DNA of 64,000 nt from Lautropia mirabilis (GTDB lineage: Bacteria > Pseudomonadota > Gammaproteobacteria > Burkholderiales > Burkholderiaceae_B), in NCBI GenBank assembly GCA_945876565.1, contig CAMCOS010000006.1, positions 1 to 64,000 on the forward strand. Reading direction: 5' to 3'. This document shows, piece after piece, positions 32,426 through 45,324 of the stretch. Position 1 is the stretch's first letter, and each line of letters begins with the position of its first letter. The notes beneath the pieces are model-generated. The model was not told the origin of the DNA, did no database searches, and saw only the letters and a list, made by a program, of their open reading frames with translations. A program made the position numbers and the translations under genes.

Positions 32426-35047
32426 TTAAGCCTGCACTTTGCTTTGAACCCAGCCAGGCACCGACTGCAGGGCTTGCGCTAACTTGGCAGGCTCGGTACC
32501 ACCACCCATGGCCATATCCGGACGGCCACCGCCCTTGCCTCCAACCTGATTCGCCACAAATCCAAGCAAGTCGCCGGCCTTGACCTTGTCCATCAGATCC
32601 TTGGTAACGCCTGCCACCAGGCTGACTTTGTCGTCTGCCACGGTCGCCAAGACCACCACGCCCGACTGTAGCTTGTCTTTGAGTTGATCAACCATGGCAC
32701 GCAAACCCTTGGGGTCAGCGCCAACCACGTCATGGACCAATACCTTGACACCAGCCACGAGCTGCGCCTGGTCCACAAGCGCAGCACCAGCACCGGCACT
32801 CATCTTCGCTTTGGTCTGCGCCAACTCGCGCTCGGCCAACTTCAGCTGCTCTTGCAACTGAGCCACTCGGCTTGCCGCCTCAGAAATGGTTGACTTCACC
32901 ATGGCTGCAATCTGAGCCGCGGTGGCGTTCAGTGATTGCGCCCAATGCAACACGTTGTCACCCGTGATGGCTTCGACACGACGCACACCGGCGGCCACGC
33001 CCGACTCGGAAATGATCTTAAAAACACCGATATCACCGGTTCGATCCACGTGGGTGCCACCGCACAACTCTCGTGAGGAGCCGATGTCCAACACACGCAC
33101 GGTATCGCCGTACTTCTCGCCAAACAAAGCCACCGCACCTGACTTGACCGCATCGTCAAACGCCATAATGCGGGCATCAGTTGGCGCGTTGGCCAGAATC
33201 TCTTGGTTAACGATTTCCTCAACTTGCGCAATTTGCTCACTGGTCATCGGTGCATCGTGCGCAAAGTCAAAGCGGGTCTTATCAGTATCGACAAGCGAGC
33301 CACGTTGCTGCACATGCCCACCAAGCACCTCACGCAAGGCCTTGTGCATCAGATGAGTGGCGGAATGGTTTCTCACCGTACGGGCACGTCGCACCGTGTC
33401 AACCGTCGCTTTGACTGAGGCACCGACCTTAAGTGAACCTCGGGTCAGCTGGCCATGATGGCCAAACACACCCGCCTGAATTTTTTGGGTATCAGCCACC
33501 ACAAACTCACTGCCATCGGCCATTAGCTGACCCGCGTCCCCCACTTGACCACCGGATTCGGCATAAAAAGGTGTTTCATCCAGCACCACCACAGCCGCCT
33601 GGCCGGAAGAAATCTCGTGCACCGGGGTGCCATCAACATAAACCGCCACGACCCGGGCATCCCAGCTCAGCGCGTCGTAACCATGAAATACCGTCTGCCC
33701 GCCTTCGTAATGCAAACCATCGGCTGACTTAAACCGGCCAGCCGCACGGGCTTGGTCGCGCTGCTTGGTCATGGCTTGCTCAAAACCAACCATGTCGACC
33801 TCAATTGACTTTTCGCGGCAAATATCAGCCGTCAAATCAACCGGAAATCCATACGTGTCGTAGAGCATAAAAAGCGTTTGACCGTCGAGTGTCTGACCCT
33901 GCTTGAGCTCAGCGAGCGCGGCGTCCAGAATTCGCATGCCATTCTCAAGCGTCTCGCCAAACCGCTCTTCTTCCTGCATTAACACCCGGGCAACACGCTC
34001 TGCGTTGTTGGCTAGCTCCGGGTAGGCCTGACCCATTTCAGCCACCAGGTCCTTGACCAGCCGATAGAAAAACGGCTTGGACTGCCCCAGCTTGTACCCA
34101 TGACGCAGCGCGCGTCGAATGATTCGGCGCAAAACATATCCACGACCTTCGTTACTCGGAATCACGCCATCGACCACTAAAAACGAGCAAGCACGAATGT
34201 GATCCGCAATCACCTTCAGTGAGTTATTTTGCAGATCCTTGCAACCCGTTTCACGGGCAGCTGCTTTGATGAGGTGATCAAACAGATCAATCTCGTAATT
34301 TGAGTGCACATGCTGCAAAACAGCCGCAATACGCTCCAGTCCCATGCCAGTGTCCACACATGGCTTGGGCAACGGATGCATGACCCCGTCACTGCCACGA
34401 TCGAACTGCATGAACACCAGGTTCCAGATCTCGATGTAACGGTCACCATCTTCTTCGGGCGATCCGGGCGGGCCTCCCCACACCTCGGCGCCATGGTCAT
34501 AAAAAATCTCTGAACACGGGCCACACGGGCCAGTGTCTGCCATCTGCCAGAAGTTGTCCGAGGCGTAGCGTGCGCCCTTGTTGTCACCAATGCGGATGAT
34601 GCGCTCAATGGGCACACCGATCTCCTTGGCCCAGATGTCATGGGCCTGGTCATCCTCATGGTAGACCGTCACCCACAAACGCTCGGTGGGCAGTTTGTAT
34701 ACGGTGGTCAGTAATTCCCAGGCGTAGCGAATCGCATCACGCTTGAAGTAGTCCCCGAAACTAAAGTTACCCAGCATCTCAAAAAACGTGTGGTGTCGTG
34801 CGGTGTAGCCAACGTTCTCAAGGTCATTGTGTTTGCCACCCGCGCGCACGCTGCGCTGTGAGCTTGTTGCCCTCTTATAGCTGCGCGCCTCCTGGCCAGT
34901 GAACACGTCTTTAAACTGCACCATGCCAGAGTTTGTAAAAAGCAAGGTTGGATCATTACCCGGCACCAGAGAAGACGAAGGCACAATTGTGTGCCCTTTG
35001 CTTTCGAAGTACTTGAGAAACTTCTCACGAATTTCAGAAACTTTCAT
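32426..35047 (-). CDS. alaS: alanyl-tRNA synthetase (start trimmed to [19 protein letters not shown])
   Basis: [16 protein letters not shown]-terminal HxxxH editing region ([16 protein letters not shown]). Confidence 0.99.
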
Positions 35048-35080: not shown

Positions 35081-35086
35081 ATTATA
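35081..35086 (-). promoter_or_regulatory. consensus TATAAT -10-like hexamer overlapping the pilV-like stop codon, candidate alaS promoter
   Basis: Minus strand ...CGCCTATAATCAAATC...; no good -35 recognised. Confidence 0.35.
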
Positions 35087-36140
35087 GGCGCAGGCAGGCA
35101 CGTCCATTCATCAAATCCACAGCATCAACACCATCAACGCTAGCGCCAAGTAAAAAGGGGGTAAACCCGGCCGGGCAATTGCATTCCGGCTCGCGCCCAA
35201 AAACCGACCACAGCGCCGAGGCCCTAAACAAGGCATAGACCACAGAATTCAAATGAGGCTGCGGCAAACAAGCCCTAACGTGGTCATGCTCTTGGGTAAC
35301 GTTATCCCAGCGACCTTGGCGACAAACACGCAACTTGCCGTCAGGGCCCACCATTACCAAGCCGTCTGGGTGACAAGTGCCATCGGCTGTGGCTAGACGG
35401 CCAAGCTGTGCGCCGGCTGCTAGGGTGACAGGCCGACTTTCATGAAGCCTGACGTAAGGCGGTGGGCGATCCGAGCGCCATGCCAATAGCCCAACCGTGC
35501 CCACCGGCAAGTCCAAGCCTTGAGCCAACGGATTGGGCAACTGATAGCTTGCGCCTTTCAGGCGATCAGGCGCCAAGTCCGTCACAGCCAGACCTTGTCC
35601 GCCGAGAGACTCAAGCATGGCACTCGGATGCACTGCCTGTGACCCAGGTCGAGGAATCGCTAGGACCAACACGCTAGCCGGACACTTTCCATCATTGCAA
35701 CTGCCAGTGGTGTCTAACCTAACTAGCTTTACCTCGTAAGGCATCTTCGGTTTAACCGTCAACGCCCCTGAAAGCCAACCGCCTTGCTTTAAACGCCCAA
35801 GCCAAGGCTGAACTGGGACTAACACGTCCATCTGCATTGGCCCAAAGACACCCGCATTCGGATAAGTGCTGGCATCTTCATGCTTTAAGGCGTCTGAAAC
35901 CGCGCCAGCAACCGCCTGCAGCCAATGCGCATAACCTTGAACCGCAGCTTGCTCAGCCTTGTGGGCGAACTCACTGGCTGCCCAGACAGCCGCCATGATC
36001 GCCAACGTCGCCACGATCATCCACTCCACGAGCGCCTGTCCTTGCTGACTATGGCGCCCGGCCACCCCCGGCTTGCGCGCGTTCAACCAGCGACTCACTG
36101 AAACACAAACACAAAGCGGTTGTTGTCGCCGCGCTGACAC
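35082..36140 (-). CDS. PilV-like minor pilin/tip protein of the type IVb pilus locus
   Basis: N-terminal [20 protein letters not shown] prepilin-like segment with Glu at +5; C-terminal [25 protein letters not shown] motif resembling PilV-type proteins; last gene of the pil operon. Confidence 0.6.
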
Positions 36141-36784
36141 TGGGCATCAGCCAGCACGGGCTGGTAGGCCATGGGCGGTGAGCTGAAATCATTTTTCACC
36201 ACCACCTTGCCCGACTTGCCATCGACTGTCACCTCACTGGCCATGCGCTGCAAAGTGGTCGCTAGCATCGGGCACGCGGCATGGTTGACGTGATCAAGCG
36301 TCAGACTAAATGCCGACCCCATGGACTGGTCTGGTGCGGCTGCCGCTGCCACCATGATCTCACCATTGCCTGATACTCCCTGCCCGCCTAGCCCGTGCAC
36401 TACAACGGCACTTGCCCCCTCACCACGCAATGTCACGGCTGAACTGCCACGCATGCCATTAACCAGCACCCGCCGGTCGACATTGGCATAAGGCGCATCA
36501 CTGCCACCAATACCAGCGACTTTCATGCGAGCCACAAACCGCTGTAGATCAGAGGCCACTTTGGGCACCTTGTTTTCAATCACATAGTCTTGCAACGCTG
36601 GTATACCGACAATCGCCAGAATCACCATCAAAGCAGTCACAATCGAGACCTCAACCAAGGAGAACCCAAGCTGCCGCACGCGCGGCCCGCCATATCGGTT
36701 CCCAATCAAGGCGGGTGTCACGTTTGGCTGTGTTGCTCGAGGCAGCACTTTGTTATTCCACATTTCGGGCAAAGTCAGGTTCAT
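36095..36784 (-). CDS. type IVb major prepilin PilS-like
   Basis: Long leader then QLG|FSLVEVSIVTALMVILAIVGIPALQDYV; two Cys near the C-terminus. Confidence 0.85.
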   Translation of the reverse strand: MNLTLPEMWNNKVLPRATQPNVTPALIGNRYGGPRVRQLGFSLVEVSIVTALMVILAIVGIPALQDYVIENKVPKVASDLQRFVARMKVAGIGGSDAPYANVDRRVLVNGMRGSSAVTLRGEGASAVVVHGLGGQGVSGNGEIMVAAAAAPDQSMGSAFSLTLDHVNHAACPMLATTLQRMASEVTVDGKSGKVVVKNDFSSPPMAYQPVLADAQCQRGDNNRFVFVFQ

Positions 36785-36971
36785 ACTGTGTTTCCTTAAA
36801 AAGTAATCTGCTTAACGTTTCAAGTGTTTCAAGTGTTTTAGGCGTGTCAAATGTATTCAAACTGTTCGTCTCATCAGGCGCTTTTGGCATAGGCTTTTGT
36901 GAACTACTCGTACAAACAGCCTCCAAGCCTCGATCACCAGACAGCACGAACCTGCACGAGCGCTGATCAAC

Positions 36972-38105
36972 TCAGGACAAGCTATAAAACAAGGTCAAGC
37001 CTTGCCTGAACTCTTCGATCGCACGCAAATGCCAGAAACCCATTGCCATGACACTTGCCAATGCCGCTATCAGCAAAATCCAGCGCAGCAACACGGCCCG
37101 GCGAGCCATCTGGCCTTTAAGCAAATCAGCAATGGCACCAGACGCATTGCCTAGACCCTGCGCCAAGCCACGTACACGAACCACGTCAACAAAACGCCAC
37201 CAAATGTCATCAGCCAGCAGGCCCGTGTTCAAACTCGTGAGAGCATCAGCGCCAGCATCCATCTGACTAACCATGGATGACAGGTGGTGGCTGAGCCAGG
37301 GACTCGCATGATGCTGCTGGGTTGTCAGCACGGTTCTAAGCGACACACCGCTTGGTGATAAGGCGTTGAGCAATGTCGCCGAGCCAGTTAAAAACCGCAT
37401 GGCATTCAGATCTCGATACAAACGCCAAATGCCAAACCGGTCCAGCACAGCGCGGGCAGGTCCAACCAACCAAATTAGCGACCACCACAACGCCGTGCCC
37501 GCCAGCACCACGGCCAAAAGCAACACCAACCAATAAACCTGCACGGTATGCACCCAAGCGATTAAGCCCTGCAGTGCAGGACCGTGGTACTCGGGTGGGA
37601 CATTGGCAAACGCGCTCATGAGTCTAGGCATTGTCCAAAGTGGCATCACAAAAAGGCAGGCAGCCGCCACCAAGGCTGCGAGCAAACCCACCGCAATCGT
37701 TTGCCAAAAGTTTCCCACACATTCATTCCAAAGGCGGATCTGACCGGACAGACTTTCCAAGGTCTGAACCAAGGCAGCCTGACCGGCTTGCTCAGCCAAC
37801 GCAATGGTCTGTAAATCCGACGCAGGCAAGGTGTCGTGCCACGTTAGAACCAGATTGCCGCCAGTGGCGGCATAACGGGTTGCCCACCAAGCTGCCAGCT
37901 GCCCACGTGCCGAACCCCTACCATGTCGCCAACTGTCTTGCTCGAAGGTCAAAAGCAAGGTTTGCTCCAACGCGCGGTTGCTAAGCAACTCTGCCAAAAA
38001 CTCGTAGTATTCAGCCCGCTGGCGCTTAAAGCGCCAGGCCGCCAAACGCACACCAAGCGGTAGCGCCCGAAAAGCTGACCTATGTCGATGCCACCAGCGC
38101 ATCAT
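36972..38105 (-). CDS. type IVb pilus inner membrane platform protein PilR-like (GspF/T2SSF family)
   Basis: Three TM regions, T2SSF-like layout, adjacent to assembly ATPase. Confidence 0.82.
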   Translation of the reverse strand: MMRWWHRHRSAFRALPLGVRLAAWRFKRQRAEYYEFLAELLSNRALEQTLLLTFEQDSWRHGRGSARGQLAAWWATRYAATGGNLVLTWHDTLPASDLQTIALAEQAGQAALVQTLESLSGQIRLWNECVGNFWQTIAVGLLAALVAAACLFVMPLWTMPRLMSAFANVPPEYHGPALQGLIAWVHTVQVYWLVLLLAVVLAGTALWWSLIWLVGPARAVLDRFGIWRLYRDLNAMRFLTGSATLLNALSPSGVSLRTVLTTQQHHASPWLSHHLSSMVSQMDAGADALTSLNTGLLADDIWWRFVDVVRVRGLAQGLGNASGAIADLLKGQMARRAVLLRWILLIAALASVMAMGFWHLRAIEEFRQGLTLFYSLS

Positions 38106-39826
38106 GCAGCAGCCTGCTGCAGAGGCGGCGCAAAGCGCACCGCATAATCGCGAGGATCGATGCGACCTTGATGCATGTGCGCAGACGCCACTTGTGCCAC
38201 GGGTCGATAACCTGGCAAATCAGATGCGCTCGTGCCAGCGTGAAGCTGCCAGCAAGCCACTTGAGCCCAAAGAGATTGCCCAGCTAGCGCGGAATAGAAC
38301 GCAGGCAAGTTGGCAGGCTCAATCATCTCGGCCACCAAAAGCCTCGAGCGGTAGCCCTTGCCTTGCCAGTCATCGCCACCTTGGCAGTCAGCGCAGCCAG
38401 ACAAATGCCTAAAACGCCAGTCGTGCCAATCACCCAAGGTTGTGCGAGCCAAGCCATCTAGCCAGGCAATCTTTTGGGCAGGACTTGCCACTGGCATGCC
38501 AAGCAAGCCATCATCCCTATCGAGCCACTCGGTTGCTGGCAGTGCACACCGCCTACAAAGCTGTTTAAGCAAGACCTGGTACACCAAAAGCTTCACAAAC
38601 CCAGGCATGGCCAAAAGGCTCTCAGGAACACCAATTAAGTCTGAGCTCAGGCGCGTCAGAATCTGCAACGCTGAACTTGCGTGCACGGTGGTGTAGACGT
38701 TGGTACCAGCTAGCACTAGGTCCACCACCGCCTGTCCGCCAATCCTGTCACGCAGCTCTCCAATCAGAACGTCATGGGCCGCACTGCGCTTGATGGTCTT
38801 TAACTTATTGGCTAGCTGAACAGCTACAGCCTGTGCCTCGAATCCAGCTACCGCACATTGCAATGCATTGGCAATCACGTACTCCACCGGGTCTTCTAGC
38901 GTGATGATCTTGCGGGTTTGGGGAATCAGAGACATCAAAGCAGCCAAAGAGGTTGATTTCCCTGATCCAACCAATCCGGCGAAGACCACCAAACCGCCGT
39001 TGCCCTGCGTGGCGCGTGTCAGCCGCTCATGCTGCATGGGCTCATAGCCAAGCTCATCGAGCGATGGCGGCACCTGCCAGCACGCCCGATTCAGCAACCG
39101 CCAGCAAACACTCACACCACCTTGCAATACCAGCGATGCCCACCGCACCCCCACCTTGTTACCAGCGATTGTTCGCTCAAAACGACCCTGCTGCTCACAG
39201 GTCAAATCAAATACAGCACCATTGCCGCCTTGAACAGTCATCCAGCTCACGGCCAATAACTCATGCACCATCTGCACTGAGAGCTGCGCGAACTGAACTG
39301 GCCTGACACAACAGCCGTTGACCGTGAATGCCACGTCGGCCGATGTTTGTGACTGCCGAATCGTAAGATGAATGTCGCTGGCGTCACATTTCAATGCCCA
39401 GGCAATCAAGTCATCGAGCAGTGACACCAGCACATGACTAGGGGTGCTAGCCGTAACGCCTAGTGTTTGCTCGCGACCGCGGACTCCCTTTATCCTTCTG
39501 TTTAATTCACCTAAACGGGCTGGCGGCACAATTTGACGCGATGGTGTGGCGATTGGCATTCCAATTTGCGCCAATGCCAGCACTAACGCACGGGTCTGCT
39601 CGGCATGCGCATGCTCAGGCAACACCCAGACTTGCGCATGGCCGCTTGGCAAGCGAACTGGGCACATACTGCTAGCGAGTTGCGGCTCATGGATCTGTAG
39701 CCGATCAAATAGCGGCTCAATTTCATCAAGAACAATCGCAGCGTCAGCGCCTAGCCTACCAATCGCCTCATGCATCAAGCTCTCACCCACCTTCAAAACG
39801 CATGCACCACTGACGGTGCGCTTCAT
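38102..39826 (-). CDS. type IVb pilus assembly ATPase PilQ-like (GspE/PulE family)
   Basis: Walker A GLVGSGKSTSLAAL; KIITLEDPVEYVI; HDVLIGELRDR. Confidence 0.9.
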   Translation of the reverse strand: MKRTVSGACVLKVGESLMHEAIGRLGADAAIVLDEIEPLFDRLQIHEPQLASSMCPVRLPSGHAQVWVLPEHAHAEQTRALVLALAQIGMPIATPSRQIVPPARLGELNRRIKGVRGREQTLGVTASTPSHVLVSLLDDLIAWALKCDASDIHLTIRQSQTSADVAFTVNGCCVRPVQFAQLSVQMVHELLAVSWMTVQGGNGAVFDLTCEQQGRFERTIAGNKVGVRWASLVLQGGVSVCWRLLNRACWQVPPSLDELGYEPMQHERLTRATQGNGGLVVFAGLVGSGKSTSLAALMSLIPQTRKIITLEDPVEYVIANALQCAVAGFEAQAVAVQLANKLKTIKRSAAHDVLIGELRDRIGGQAVVDLVLAGTNVYTTVHASSALQILTRLSSDLIGVPESLLAMPGFVKLLVYQVLLKQLCRRCALPATEWLDRDDGLLGMPVASPAQKIAWLDGLARTTLGDWHDWRFRHLSGCADCQGGDDWQGKGYRSRLLVAEMIEPANLPAFYSALAGQSLWAQVACWQLHAGTSASDLPGYRPVAQVASAHMHQGRIDPRDYAVRFAPPLQQAAA

Positions 39827-40251
39827 AAGCCTGTCCTAGGCAGACACACCGTCTGCAGTTTTGCGCCTTGCGCAAACGAGACGCACGGTGGCTTGATCAG
39901 ACGAAGTCGCAATGAACTTTTCTGCAGGTTCAACGGCAGCTGACGCCCTTGTTCAAAGACCACTTCCCGACCATTGACCAAGATCGTCGCCCGCAGCTGT
40001 GGCAAAACACCATAAATTGACAACAGTGACGCAGCTGGCTCTGCGCCGGCTGCGTCTTTTTGCTGTTTGGATTGCCACTTGGCCAACACATCAGACTCGG
40101 CCTTCATCATGGCCAGCACCGTCATCGGCGCCATCTTTTTTGGTTGGGATGCTGCTTGGGGCAACACCTGCTCTGGCGCTGACATCGCTGGATTACCTAG
40201 TAGCATGCCAACCGTCAGAACGCTTTGCCAAATCCGGCTAGTTCGTTTCAA
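39823..40251 (-). CDS. type IVb pilus biogenesis protein PilP-like
   Basis: Signal peptide, small periplasmic protein, position between pilO- and pilQ-like genes. Confidence 0.72.
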   Translation of the reverse strand: MKRTSRIWQSVLTVGMLLGNPAMSAPEQVLPQAASQPKKMAPMTVLAMMKAESDVLAKWQSKQQKDAAGAEPAASLLSIYGVLPQLRATILVNGREVVFEQGRQLPLNLQKSSLRLRLIKPPCVSFAQGAKLQTVCLPRTGL

Positions 40252-41569
40252 GCCACTCTCCTTGTAAGTTCAACATCAAATACCCGTGTAATTTGTCAAT
40301 CTGAGCGCCATGCACAACAGCAAGGTCGGCCTGATGCCATCGCAATGGCAAGTTCAATTCATTGATGCGATCGGCCTGTCGCAAAGCAAGACGAATCGAC
40401 AAGGCTCGGCTTGATAGTCTTAATACCTGTGTGGTGTCGGATTGATCTTCGGACCCCATGACCCAGTCTTGGCTCACTGGCATCACCTGATGTGCGGATT
40501 TCTCAGATCCGAGCGCCAGCGTGGCGACCCGAGCACTTAAGCGCTGCAACTGAGTCAACCCAAACGAATGGCCGACTATCAAATGGGGCTCAAAAGGCTT
40601 TATGGCCAGCTTGATTCGGCGCGTCAGAAAGGCACGGTCAAGCGACTCTGGTTCAAATACCCATCCGTGTGTTTGGTGACGCTCTAATCCCTCGTTATCG
40701 GCATCTGGTGCTCGTCGTTTGTAGCTTGCCTTACAAAATCCGTTGTCTTGCTCGATCCGGCAACTCACCCCTTGCAAGAGCCAACCCTGTGGATCCACCG
40801 GCAAGGTATACCAGCCCTGCAATAGCGACTGAAGACTTGTCCGATGATGCACATACGCTCGAGAGCTCATATGCCCGGGGCTGACTTGAGCATGAACGAC
40901 CGATTGCTCGGCGCCTTGCTCTGACAGGCTTTCGTTGAGTACCAAGCCGATGGCCGCACAGATCAAAACACCAAGCACAAGGGCTAACCACCAGGCATCG
41001 CTCGATGGCAATCGCTCAAACCGAGATTGCTTGAATAGACTGGCCTGTAAAAACTCGGGCTGCTCTTGGTCTGCGTCTTCGGTAGCCCATGACCATTGAA
41101 GCCGCTGGCACTGAAGCTGAGCGTGACGCTCGTTCAGCGTATCGAGCAAGGCCTCAGCCTGCTCAGTGGTATCGACCCATCGGTCAGTGTCACTGATGAC
41201 ACAACCCTGCGATGAAGCCACCAGCCAGAGGCCCACGCCGCTGACCTGTAAGCAAAGCGCATGCTCGCCGCACGGGTGTGCGGCCGCGAATGCTGCAGCC
41301 GCACTCGCGCTTTGACGGCTCAGCTCCAGACCTTGAGCTGTCGATGGCACCCCAATCAAGCGCACGAATTTGCCATGACTGACTGCCCAAACCAGACCTT
41401 GTTGGCGCAAATTGCGTTGCAAGACTTTTTGCCCAGACGAACCCAGCGCTGGCAACCACCGCATGCCAAATACCCAGTTGATATTTGACTTTGGATCACG
41501 CCACCCCAAAGCACGGTTGTCTGGCTCCAATACAGGCGCTGTTTGCTGCACTATGGCGTTAAGCACCAT
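40238..41569 (-). CDS. type IVb pilus protein PilO2-like
   Basis: Single TM in mid-protein (WWLALVLGVLICAAIGLVL), size and position match PilO2. Confidence 0.78.
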   Translation of the reverse strand: MVLNAIVQQTAPVLEPDNRALGWRDPKSNINWVFGMRWLPALGSSGQKVLQRNLRQQGLVWAVSHGKFVRLIGVPSTAQGLELSRQSASAAAAFAAAHPCGEHALCLQVSGVGLWLVASSQGCVISDTDRWVDTTEQAEALLDTLNERHAQLQCQRLQWSWATEDADQEQPEFLQASLFKQSRFERLPSSDAWWLALVLGVLICAAIGLVLNESLSEQGAEQSVVHAQVSPGHMSSRAYVHHRTSLQSLLQGWYTLPVDPQGWLLQGVSCRIEQDNGFCKASYKRRAPDADNEGLERHQTHGWVFEPESLDRAFLTRRIKLAIKPFEPHLIVGHSFGLTQLQRLSARVATLALGSEKSAHQVMPVSQDWVMGSEDQSDTTQVLRLSSRALSIRLALRQADRINELNLPLRWHQADLAVVHGAQIDKLHGYLMLNLQGEWLETN

Positions 41570-43163
41570 CTTGCACCTGTACGGTCACAAAAATCAGCGT
41601 CATGGTGGTTTGATGGCTAACCTCATCCGCCCCACCGAATACCTTGGGCGCATGCGGCGAACGACGCGTCTGGTTCACCTCGTTGGCTTGCTGCTCAAAT
41701 CCCGCAATCAATGTTGGTCGCCCTGGGTACAGCACCACCTGCTGAACCGTGCCATTGCCACGCAGATCAAGCTGCTGAATTTGAACAGCACCCTGGCTGC
41801 CACCAAATGAAAGCGTCTTTAATGGCATAGCGACCGTGTCATCAAACGACACAGACAACAACACCTGCCCATCATCCTGAACATCCGGCACCAGTGTCAG
41901 AAACGCCCCAACCGTCTCTCGCTTCTGGCTCACTGCAATGCCGGGCAATGCATTCTGGTTGTTTTTATCTGACGAATTAGCCGCCACTGACTTTACCTGA
42001 TCAACGTATGTGAACGTTGATCGCACCGCGTGGGTCACTGGCCGACGATTTAGCGTCATCACGGGCACCGTGGTGTGCCTGATCACATCGGCATAACGCG
42101 AAACCGCCTTCAGCAGTAAGCTGCTATTGAATCCAGACACACCCCCAGAGCCGGCCACCTTCATCAGCGTTGGCGCAGGCCCAGCAAATGCCCCGACGAT
42201 ATCCATGCCACCGAGATCGGAAGCCAATGCAAACTGCCAGTCGATCCCCTGCTCATGACGTTGGTCACGCGTGACGGTGACCTGCTCGAACACCAACCTC
42301 ACCCGACGGCTCAGTTGTCGATTCAGGCGCTCCAGATACTGAGACACACGTTCTAATGCGGGCGGTGTGTCTGTCACCACAATCGAATTCAAACTACCGG
42401 GCTGCGCGGCCACCACGGCAGCTCGCGTCAATAACGGTTCAAGCTGCTTCACAACGTCTTGCACCAATGCCTGACTAGGCAATGACAGCTCGGTGTAGGC
42501 TGCGCTATCAAACCCTTGGCTGTCTTGGTTGCTAGACTTGCCTAGCCGCATATCCGACTTGGCAGCAACCGACAGCCCCCGCACATCAAACACCTTGGTG
42601 CGCGTGCGGTAGAACTCAATCGCCTTGCCATCGAACTGCCAGTAAACCTGATAAATTGCTGCCACATGGTCAAGAATTTTCGGCAGCGGCTGTGCACCGA
42701 CTGGCATACTCCAGAGCACCTGCGCAGATGGCTGTGTACTGCCACCTGTCACCGATAGACGAGAGACAAAATCCTCGATGGGCAAAAGTGCATCGGGATT
42801 CACGCGCACAGGAATTTGGGTTGCCTGTGCGATGCGATTGGCCACCTCAGCCAAAGACTTTGGCTTACTGGCATAGATTAATGTGGTGTTGACATTCGCT
42901 CTGAGTGCGACGGGCAAATCAAATTCGCGTGCCAAGGGCATGGGCTTGCCAGAGACCCAGGGCTTGTTCACACGAACATCGGCCCGATCCACATCTGACC
43001 CATTCGCCACCTCTTTCGCATACCGTTTTGCGGTCTGTTGCATGCCTTGATGACGCTCACGAGCATAATCACGCGTTTGACGACTTAGATCATCGATGGC
43101 GCACGAGCAAAGCAGGCCTGCCAAAACAGCCGCCACAAGTGATTTCATGGCAACGCTGCTCAT
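41559..43163 (-). CDS. PilN-family type IVb pilus outer membrane secretin (lipoprotein)
   Basis: Lipobox LLCSC, secretin-like C-terminal half. Confidence 0.88.
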   Translation of the reverse strand: MSSVAMKSLVAAVLAGLLCSCAIDDLSRQTRDYARERHQGMQQTAKRYAKEVANGSDVDRADVRVNKPWVSGKPMPLAREFDLPVALRANVNTTLIYASKPKSLAEVANRIAQATQIPVRVNPDALLPIEDFVSRLSVTGGSTQPSAQVLWSMPVGAQPLPKILDHVAAIYQVYWQFDGKAIEFYRTRTKVFDVRGLSVAAKSDMRLGKSSNQDSQGFDSAAYTELSLPSQALVQDVVKQLEPLLTRAAVVAAQPGSLNSIVVTDTPPALERVSQYLERLNRQLSRRVRLVFEQVTVTRDQRHEQGIDWQFALASDLGGMDIVGAFAGPAPTLMKVAGSGGVSGFNSSLLLKAVSRYADVIRHTTVPVMTLNRRPVTHAVRSTFTYVDQVKSVAANSSDKNNQNALPGIAVSQKRETVGAFLTLVPDVQDDGQVLLSVSFDDTVAMPLKTLSFGGSQGAVQIQQLDLRGNGTVQQVVLYPGRPTLIAGFEQQANEVNQTRRSPHAPKVFGGADEVSHQTTMTLIFVTVQVQDGA

Positions 43164-43885
43164 GGACGATCTCCTTGATCAGCCATCGGGTCGCACGACT
43201 GCGCAGCCGGAATCACTCGCAACACATGATTGGCATAAAAACAGGGTTTCACCGCCTGACCTGATATCCGCGCCGACTCAAGTAGTCCGCGAACAGCGAG
43301 CTCAAAATCAGCGTTAAAAACTGCTGGGGCCGTGATTGGAAAGTCTACTGGCAGTGACCAATGGGCGTCATCGAAGAACCAATTTGCTTGTTCTGACCAG
43401 CGCCGCAATGCTTGGCGAATACTGCCATCAGACAAGCGCACATCGAACCCTGTCGGTTGACTGACTGGCGTATTGACGCATGGTGTGGCCCCCGCTTGCC
43501 GATATGCAGCCATGGCTTGCAATTGACCGCCCTGAAAACGCAGTCGTTGCCAAGAACCCTCGATAACCGTGTACTGCCCATGTGGGTGCTGATCAACCAC
43601 TTGCCAGCCATCAAGATGCTCAACAAAGATCGTTGGCACAGCTTGGTGCGCATGCCATTGCAGCCAGATGCGCCCTTGATCAGAAAACACTTGGCGCGGG
43701 GCAACCCTCCGGTCACCGCTCAAATGCCAGTTAAAGTCAGGGTCACCAACAATCGGATGGGCAGGCTGCCGGGGTGCAGATTGTGTGTAGTGAGCTGCGT
43801 CGGTATCGTGAACCGCACAGCCTGACAGCACGCTGGCGAGGCCTAGCAGCAAGCCCGCGCACGAGAACTTGGAACAGATCTCCAT
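43160..43885 (-). CDS. PilL-like / TcpQ-domain lipoprotein
   Basis: Lipobox LSGC; C-terminal LSDGSIRQALRRWSEQANWFF TcpQ-like region. Confidence 0.78.
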   Translation of the reverse strand: MEICSKFSCAGLLLGLASVLSGCAVHDTDAAHYTQSAPRQPAHPIVGDPDFNWHLSGDRRVAPRQVFSDQGRIWLQWHAHQAVPTIFVEHLDGWQVVDQHPHGQYTVIEGSWQRLRFQGGQLQAMAAYRQAGATPCVNTPVSQPTGFDVRLSDGSIRQALRRWSEQANWFFDDAHWSLPVDFPITAPAVFNADFELAVRGLLESARISGQAVKPCFYANHVLRVIPAAQSCDPMADQGDRP

Positions 43886-43909: not shown

Positions 43910-43977
43910 CAGCATCTTGAACGATCAATGCCATCGAAACAATTGTGCAGATTACGACCGGACACGCAAGTCCTCGT

Positions 43978-44012
43978 AAAAACACGGCCAGCATTCAGCT
44001 GGCCGTGTTTTT
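43978..44012 (-). terminator. bidirectional Rho-independent terminator after ugpB
   Basis: 15-bp perfect stem AAAAACACGGCCAGC-ATTCA-GCTGGCCGTGTTTTT. Confidence 0.85.
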
Positions 44013-44034
44013 ACTACATACACTCTACAAAAAC

Positions 44035-45324
44035 TTAACGCATCAGCTTTGCAGCTTCGGCCTTTGCATTCATCAGTGCAGTCATGGGTGGCGTTTTGTC
44101 AGTTAGCGCCAGGTCAAACGCTTGATTGAACAAAACCAAGATCTTGGGATAGTTGCGCACATCGAACCCAGTGGACTTTTTGCTATCGCCATTGGTCATC
44201 TGATCAACAATTTTACGTGCGCCCGGAATGCGGTTGTAAAAGGACACATCCGCTGCCCTGAATGCAGCATCGGTCAACGGCAGGTAACCCGTCTTCTGAT
44301 GCCACTCGGCCGCCACCACTGGCTTGGCCAGATAGGAAATCAACTCAGCTGTGGCCTTTTGGCGGGCATCCGAGTTACCTTTGACTGCCCACAACGCACT
44401 ACCACCGATAAACGGAGCACCGGGCTTGGGTGTTTCCTGTTCGTAATACGGCACCGGTGCAACCCCAAAACGCATATTGCTTTGCAGCACCTCACCCAAG
44501 GCACCGGAACCTGCGGTCAGAACGGCGCAACGACCTTGCGTGAAGCCCTCAGTGGCTTGGCCCTGCGCACTGTGCTGCAATAACAACTCAGTCTTTCGCC
44601 AGCTGACCATCAATGACAAGTGACGAACGTATAGTTTGCTGAAATTAAATGACAGATTCGGCGAAGGCTTCATGCCATTGTCTGGCGTCAAATAAAATTC
44701 GTCATTGATTGGTGCTAGGTTCTCGATGTGAACCTTGACTTGATCGCTCGTGACGTACGGGCAACGGACGTTGCCATCGTTACGGAGTTTCAACAGGTGT
44801 GCCTGAAGCTCTGACCATGTGGCTGGCGGCGCATCAGCGTCCAGACCCGCGCCCCGGTACATCTCAACGTTGTAAAACATGATCGGCACTTCGGCCATGT
44901 AGGGAAATGCCAAAAGGCGACCGCGACTGTCACGCACGAAATCAGTGGTTTTTTCCAGGAACCAGGAGGAGTCGGGAACTGGGTACTTTGCCAACAATTG
45001 GTACAAGGGCAAGATATCCTTGTGCTGGGCCACCACCTCTGGGGAACGATTATCTCTTAACTGGACCAAATCCGGTTTGGCACCCTTGCCGGCGATCGCC
45101 TCGGCAGCATCTTTTTCCAGGCTGTCTTGATCCCGATAGTGGGTCAAATCCACCACGACATTGGACTGAGACGAGTTGAAGCGATTAATCAAACTTTCAA
45201 ATTCGGCACGATTGGGCCCCGACAGAGTGTGCCAAACTTCAATCTCAGTCTTTTTTGCCAGCGCAGGGGCAGACAATAAAGCGGACATTCCCAGAATGAC
45301 CAAGCTCTTAACGATTGGTTTCAC
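44035..45324 (-). CDS. UgpB-like extracellular solute-binding protein (glycerol-3-phosphate type)
   Basis: Signal peptide; KTEIEVWHTLSGPNRAEFESLINRFNSSQ. Confidence 0.85.
   Translation of the reverse strand: MKPIVKSLVILGMSALLSAPALAKKTEIEVWHTLSGPNRAEFESLINRFNSSQSNVVVDLTHYRDQDSLEKDAAEAIAGKGAKPDLVQLRDNRSPEVVAQHKDILPLYQLLAKYPVPDSSWFLEKTTDFVRDSRGRLLAFPYMAEVPIMFYNVEMYRGAGLDADAPPATWSELQAHLLKLRNDGNVRCPYVTSDQVKVHIENLAPINDEFYLTPDNGMKPSPNLSFNFSKLYVRHLSLMVSWRKTELLLQHSAQGQATEGFTQGRCAVLTAGSGALGEVLQSNMRFGVAPVPYYEQETPKPGAPFIGGSALWAVKGNSDARQKATAELISYLAKPVVAAEWHQKTGYLPLTDAAFRAADVSFYNRIPGARKIVDQMTNGDSKKSTGFDVRNYPKILVLFNQAFDLALTDKTPPMTALMNAKAEAAKLMR

Follow-up and report, generated by a model that had tools for sequence, protein, structure and literature searches.

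The R64/IncI thin pilus, a type IVb (T4b) pilus, is one of the described systems closest to the locus considered here. A 64,000-nt stretch of Lautropia mirabilis DNA (contig CAMCOS010000006.1, the window) contains, on the minus strand at 35082-43885, eight open reading frames (ORFs) in the order pilL-N-O-P-Q-R-S-V, which agrees with that of R64/IncI; L, N, O2, P, Q, R, S and V all have homologues there. In contrast to the latter, the window operon lacks pilM, pilT (transglycosylase), pilU (peptidase), the shufflon and rci, is chromosomal without tra genes, and encodes a PilL with an added VirB9-type domain. Shufflon and recombinase are a specialisation of R64 and its relatives; in the window, pilV is followed by alaS after 34 nt. 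According to the reading favoured here, with a probability of roughly 0.55, the operon would encode a complete, vertically inherited, non-conjugative T4b pilus that derives from an MPF_I-type plasmid module, has its secretin held by a VirB9-like ring of PilL and acts mainly in adhesion.

Two plasmid modules of the MPF_I type have the same minimal gene set and order as the window. The A. xylosoxidans plasmid pA82 carries L-N-O-P-Q-R-S-V without pilM, pilT and pilU, directly behind a DotD/TraH-family gene, a gene for DNA transfer and one for another ATPase, and a Variovorax plasmid carries this set behind DotA/TraY. Both modules adjoin DotD/TraH, DotA/TraY or coupling-type genes, and unlike the window operon they encode a TcpQ protein without VirB9 domain. 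As the plasmid sisters also lack them, pilM, pilT and pilU are non-essential to this wider kind of system.

A chromosomal counterpart has been listed in Bordetella, where 'Type IV Pilus' (T4P) loci A, B and C are shared across the genus, loci B and C comprising eight consecutive locus tags, and all three are reported for B. petrii (Linz et al. 2016, PMC5045587). B. petrii carries a window-type locus beside alaS (L154), and the window locus is therefore very probably one of these three. The loci are uncharacterised in PMC5045587, and a domain analysis was not found there. Thus, the locus as such is already known but unstudied, while there appears to be no earlier report of the VirB9-TcpQ chimera, of the constant position throughout the family or of a sister group on plasmids.

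Assignment of the pil genes

By homology, the eight ORFs represent an R64-type (T4b) pilus operon, and chance is excluded because the operon is conserved over tens of genera. A first-pass annotation had proposed eight minus-strand R64-type pil ORFs, the first six overlapping by about 4-14 nt, and this is borne out by the verified coordinates, the domain libraries and the family profiles. The overlaps measure 4 nt (L/N), 11 nt (N/O), 14 nt (O/P), 4 nt (P/Q) and 4 nt (Q/R), and 187 nt separate pilR from pilS. Several library matches, TIGR02520 and TIGR03021/pilP among them, score below curated cut-offs: PilN reaches 149 bits against TIGR02520, for which the cut-off is 288. PilS scores 28.3 bits against PF08805, with a cut-off of 22. 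Profiles built from the family recover pilN, pilO2, pilP, pilQ, pilR and pilV of an IncI-type plasmid, matching R64-type PilN at 4e-47, PilR at 2e-16, PilP at 1.7e-5, PilO2 at 6e-8 and PilV at 2.9e-17. The window PilO2 has no match in the domain libraries by itself; its family profile also detects pA82 pilO2 at 4e-83.

The window copy of PilV has no Pfam match, Shufflon_N included, and Shufflon_N is matched by 15 of 26 PilV homologues. Its predicted model contains a long N-terminal helix (residues 35-87), and a Foldseek comparison with the PDB returned nothing significant, the T4b pilins CofB and PilS appearing only at E>1. Translation of pilV most likely starts from a GTG at 36098 rather than at 36140, which would give a 4-nt overlap with the pilS stop (GTGA). 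The ATG of alaS lies at 35047 (MKVSEIREK...), and the apparent overlap between the pilV and alaS ORFs is therefore unreal.

The VirB9-like and TcpQ domains of PilL

PilL is a three-part chimera: its lipoprotein signal is followed by a VirB9/CagX C-terminal domain, as found in the outer-membrane ring of type IV secretion systems (T4SS), and by a TcpQ domain. The VirB9-like domain had been missed in the first-pass annotation. CagX and TcpQ are both matched in the window PilL and in all 27 homologues scanned, and both halves are seen in 78 of 80 named loci, the remaining two beginning near a contig end. An AlphaFold model of PilL (mean predicted local distance difference test score, pLDDT, 84) gives 12 Foldseek matches in the PDB at E<=0.001, all of them VirB9/TrwF/TraO/CagX C-terminal domains, and the best superposes at ~1.5-1.8 angstrom over ~90 residues. 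With the sequence profile of PilL, TrwF is matched at 5e-8; the TcpQ part of the profile weakly matches the N0 domain of Xanthomonas VirB7 (E 0.06-0.14). For this N0 domain, an extra ring around the pore has been proposed (PMC3093366). In Xanthomonas, N0 and the VirB9 C-terminal domain belong to two T4SS proteins, whereas PilL is one chain, and its gene belongs to a pilus operon that includes a secretin but lacks a T4SS.

PilL is the sole CagX/VirB9-like match in the genome. In the plasmid and second-copy relatives, the TcpQ protein lacks a VirB9 domain, and the VirB9-TcpQ fusion is a marker of the chromosomal clade that is missing from its plasmid sisters. A class-wide search of 369 genomes yielded no further two-domain VirB9-TcpQ match besides one in G316, a genome from another family of the order. 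In this distant parallel, a composite locus (L224, 116-19878), a VirB9-TcpQ-TcpQ fusion has VirB4/VirB8/VirB9/VirB10-type genes on one side and a T4b pilus cluster on the other, and the run also encodes a PilN secretin and two additional ATPases. A Cupriavidus plasmid (L159, 4732-11755) contains two VirB9/TrbG-family genes, the second of which adjoins a transglycosylase, TcpQ and PilN, an arrangement that possibly represents an intermediate. A search of the open-access literature, with subscription papers outside its reach, found no relevant paper on a link of VirB9 with TcpQ or PilL.

By analogy with these T4SS proteins, PilL could tentatively be viewed as a structural hybrid, in which a T4SS-type outer-membrane ring (VirB9 C-terminal) surrounds the pilus secretin, and VirB7 anchor and N0-like module are merged into one lipoprotein. 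The hybrid would have arisen at least twice, on Alcaligenaceae chromosomes and in the composite VirB/T4b locus of G316; the odds of this proposal are put somewhat below even. If true, PilL would be a present-day connection between outer-membrane complexes built on secretins and those of the T4SS type. The VirB9-TcpQ protein is a concrete case of T4SS and type IV pilus outer-membrane parts in one polypeptide, and it bears on the evolution of outer-membrane secretion rings.

Position beside alaS and inheritance

A search for PilN across 269 genomes from the Alcaligenaceae-type family gave a match in 213 of them at E<=1e-3 (~185 strong, 28 weak matches), while outside this family 12 of ~386 genomes of the order gave a distant match only. 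Adjacency was counted in 36 20-kb loci with a visible neighbour and in 65 loci of named genomes, which include Achromobacter, Bordetella petrii and genomospecies, Pollutimonas, Candidimonas, Paralcaligenes, Sheuella, Zwartia and others. pilV adjoins alaS in 27/36 and 53/65 of these loci, and an ABC substrate-binding gene adjoins pilL in 29/36 and 56/65, respectively. The slot substrate-binding gene/pil/alaS is thus common to most genera of the family; in some Pusillimonas-like and Neopusillimonas genomes, the operon is located elsewhere. For each Pil protein compared (L, N, O, Q, R, S and V), the distances are correlated with AlaS distances (Mantel r 0.76-0.86), comparably to the flanking substrate-binding gene (r 0.77).

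These data point to a locus that is ancestral beside alaS, was fixed near the base of the Alcaligenaceae and has been vertically inherited in the family. A plasmid-type mating pilus would thereby have become part of the core equipment of the family to which Achromobacter and Bordetella belong. The family-wide synteny, the flat GC content across the locus and the co-divergence with AlaS rule out a recent insertion or genomic island. Insertion directly upstream of alaS, which had been singled out as a notable event, is accordingly not supported.

The operon has been lost or has decayed in several lineages. In three operon-less Achromobacter genomes, the space from the substrate-binding gene to alaS still contains the 5' half of pilL (L191, 8622-9152, G021; L192, 9095-9550, G012; L193, 8308-8754, G009). 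This VirB9-like half is a small, intact ORF, alike in all three, and represents either a deletion scar or a retained gene. In L195, L196 and L197 (G063, G057 and G054), a degraded locus with truncated pilN/pilO or the pilL start alone still lies between the two usual flanks; truncated pilN/pilO occur in two genomes of another genus. In L058 (G158; the same contig place as L126, Mesopusillimonas faecipullorum), pilL and pilN alone are recognised, the remaining operon genes being missing or too divergent, and both flanks are missing.

Synonymous sites within the genus of the window are saturated, which makes codon-rate tests there unusable; the single pair with unsaturated sites gives a ratio of nonsynonymous to synonymous rates (dN/dS) of 0.10-0.27. 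Among close relatives, PilV (52-55% identity) and PilO (49-51%) are the fastest-changing proteins, compared with 76-84% for PilN. In the case of PilV, fast divergence would be expected of an exposed tip.

Probable descent from plasmid modules

In a tree of PilN and PilQ with an R64-type plasmid as outgroup, the chromosomal genes are monophyletic (support 0.99). Their sisters are pA82 and two Achromobacter second copies, followed by the Variovorax plasmid. These second copies are divergent T4b pilus clusters without a VirB9 domain (L202, 8074-18014, G024; L203, 2649-11886, G025). Because of this placement, the lineage most likely descends from a thin-pilus module carried by MPF_I-type plasmids of the Burkholderiales. 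As pA82, the nearest plasmid relative, is also without pilM, pilT and pilU, their absence predates chromosomal life.

The earlier proposal of a domesticated conjugation pilus therefore stands with respect to plasmid-associated descent. The minimal gene set as a sign of domestication is ruled out by the plasmid sisters, which carry the same set beside tra/dot genes. Nor do gene set and position distinguish this genome, since the slot is family-wide and pA82 shares the set.

Components encoded elsewhere in the genome

The absence of pilM, pilT and pilU from the operon holds in the window and in the syntenic loci; a separate PilM search is uninformative, since its control itself remained without match. 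The genome encodes a single Peptidase_A24, adjoining coaE, in agreement with the suggestion that a prepilin peptidase acts in trans. It occupies the usual pilD-coaE place (L004, 6734-7417) and is short (227 aa), with Peptidase_A24 as sole Pfam match; an N-terminal methylase-type domain was not found with Pfam. As this is the only A24 peptidase, the Tad and T4b pilins would share it. The Tad locus (G000:C20; L005, 5306-13162) shows no prepilin peptidase within the stretch read. N_methyl is matched twice genome-wide, by pilS and pilV, which are the only detectable class III prepilins of the genome.

Two T2SSE-type ATPases are present, the PilQ of this operon and the CpaF of the Tad system, and therefore the genome contains no PilT, PilB, GspE or VirB11; the T2SSE-type search thus reveals no retraction ATPase. 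The expected lack of a conjugation apparatus is likewise upheld: genome-wide, there is no T4SS coupling protein, VirB11-type ATPase or other VirB9 (VirB4 and VirB10 were not searched separately). Regarding a conjugative element, no coupling protein, VirB11/DotB ATPase or mobile location was found, the relaxase itself not having been searched. The genome also encodes ComEC and a ComEA-like helix-hairpin-helix protein.

Proposed function and alternative readings

T4b secretins are assisted by proteins of the TcpQ type, and in T4SS core complexes the outer ring is made up of VirB9 C-terminal domains. With the parts present here, PilS would be processed by the single peptidase encoded elsewhere and polymerised by the ATPase PilQ on a base of PilR, PilO2 and PilP. 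The pilus would leave the cell via the lipoprotein secretin PilN, anchored or enclosed by the outer-membrane lipoprotein PilL. The TcpQ domain of PilL may bind PilN, while its VirB9-type domain may build a T4SS-like outer-membrane ring around it, and PilV would cap the pilus as a binding tip. Given the missing retraction ATPase, adhesion and aggregation are the simplest role and would be the main one. Gene content, the domains of the proteins, synteny, co-divergence with AlaS, purifying selection and the lack of a T4SS are shown by the data, whereas the ring, tip and adhesion roles are inferred.

Several points weigh against this picture. A ring formed by the VirB9-like domain is proposed by analogy, and PilV has no solved-structure match, so that the tip role rests on the Shufflon_N matches and on gene position. 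Moreover, the presence of ComEC and a ComEA-like protein makes DNA uptake possible. The operon has been lost or degraded in several lineages and is hence dispensable. The plasmid-to-chromosome direction is likewise inferred, as pA82 groups with two Achromobacter second copies of unannotated surroundings.

The main rival is a competence pilus, where the T4b pilus would capture DNA for import by ComEA/ComEC. The genome has no type IVa pilus (no second PilB/PilT-type ATPase, no other N_methyl pilins), so that apart from Tad this is its sole type IV filament, and ComEC and the helix-hairpin-helix protein are retained. However, such proteins are widespread and do not prove competence, and there is no retraction ATPase to pull DNA in; a competence role is thus considered unlikely. 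The missing retraction ATPase would also suit a secretion device, in which, as in some T4b systems, a protein would be driven out by a short pseudopilus. T4P and type II secretion system (T2SS) machineries are homologous, and no T2SS pseudopilins are encoded elsewhere in the genome. Yet PilS is a full T4b-type pilin, PilV is a Shufflon_N-type protein, and no syntenic locus has a candidate exoprotein gene within the operon, which leaves secretion improbable.

Only slightly less improbable is a domesticated relic that is being lost and has no present function. Repeated loss, with scars in three Achromobacter and truncated pilN/pilO in another genus, speaks for it, and in B. pertussis and B. holmesii T4P loci have been described as degenerate (PMC5045587). 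Nevertheless, the window and most relatives have all eight ORFs intact, the operon has long been retained, and a dN/dS well below 1 indicates purifying selection and argues against a relic. A still-mating integrative and conjugative element or plasmid system, with its tra genes elsewhere in the genome, is largely refuted: plasmid relatives do carry such modules beside transfer genes, but the genome has no coupling protein, VirB11/DotB ATPase or other VirB9, and the syntenic position is ancestral. A non-conjugative, mainly adhesive T4b pilus therefore remains the preferred reading.

Features of the locus

The window contains no tRNA, and neither a tRNA nor a shufflon lies near the operon, as noted in the first-pass annotation. 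A promoter scan returned no candidates.

Table 1. Coordinates of the pil operon and flanking features in the window
Feature	Position	Strand	Evidence
PilL-like lipoprotein, lipobox Cys23, VirB9/CagX C-terminal domain, linker, TcpQ domain	43160..43885	-	Pfam CagX 2.1e-8, TcpQ 1.1e-16
VirB9/CagX C-terminal domain of PilL, residues 45-121	43523..43753	-	Pfam CagX
TcpQ domain of PilL, residues 147-225	43211..43447	-	Pfam TcpQ
PilN-type secretin, lipoprotein, Cys21 invariant (family alignment)	41559..43163	-	TIGR02520 1.4e-43
PilO2-like protein	40238..41569	-	Family profile matches, no library match alone
PilP-like periplasmic protein	39823..40251	-	TIGR03021 2.7e-5, below cut-off
PilQ-type assembly ATPase, Walker A GLVGSGKST, CxxC...CxxC	38102..39826	-	T2SSE 2.7e-41
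PilR-type platform protein	36972..38105	-	ComGB 6e-4
PilS-type major prepilin (G/FSLVEVS)	36095..36784	-	PF08805 2.1e-6; N_methyl match
PilV-like prepilin, probable tip adhesin (G/QALVE; Cys-rich C terminus), GTG start	35082..36098	-	Shufflon_N in homologues; N_methyl match
17-bp hairpin between substrate-binding gene and pilL	43976..44014	-	-31.4 kcal/mol, z -9
alaS, flanking marker	32426..35047	-	Start read from sequence; synteny
ABC substrate-binding protein gene, flanking marker, other side	44035..45324	-	Synteny

The hairpin between the substrate-binding gene and pilL, which the pattern scanner did not call, is probably the terminator of the upstream gene or transcription unit.

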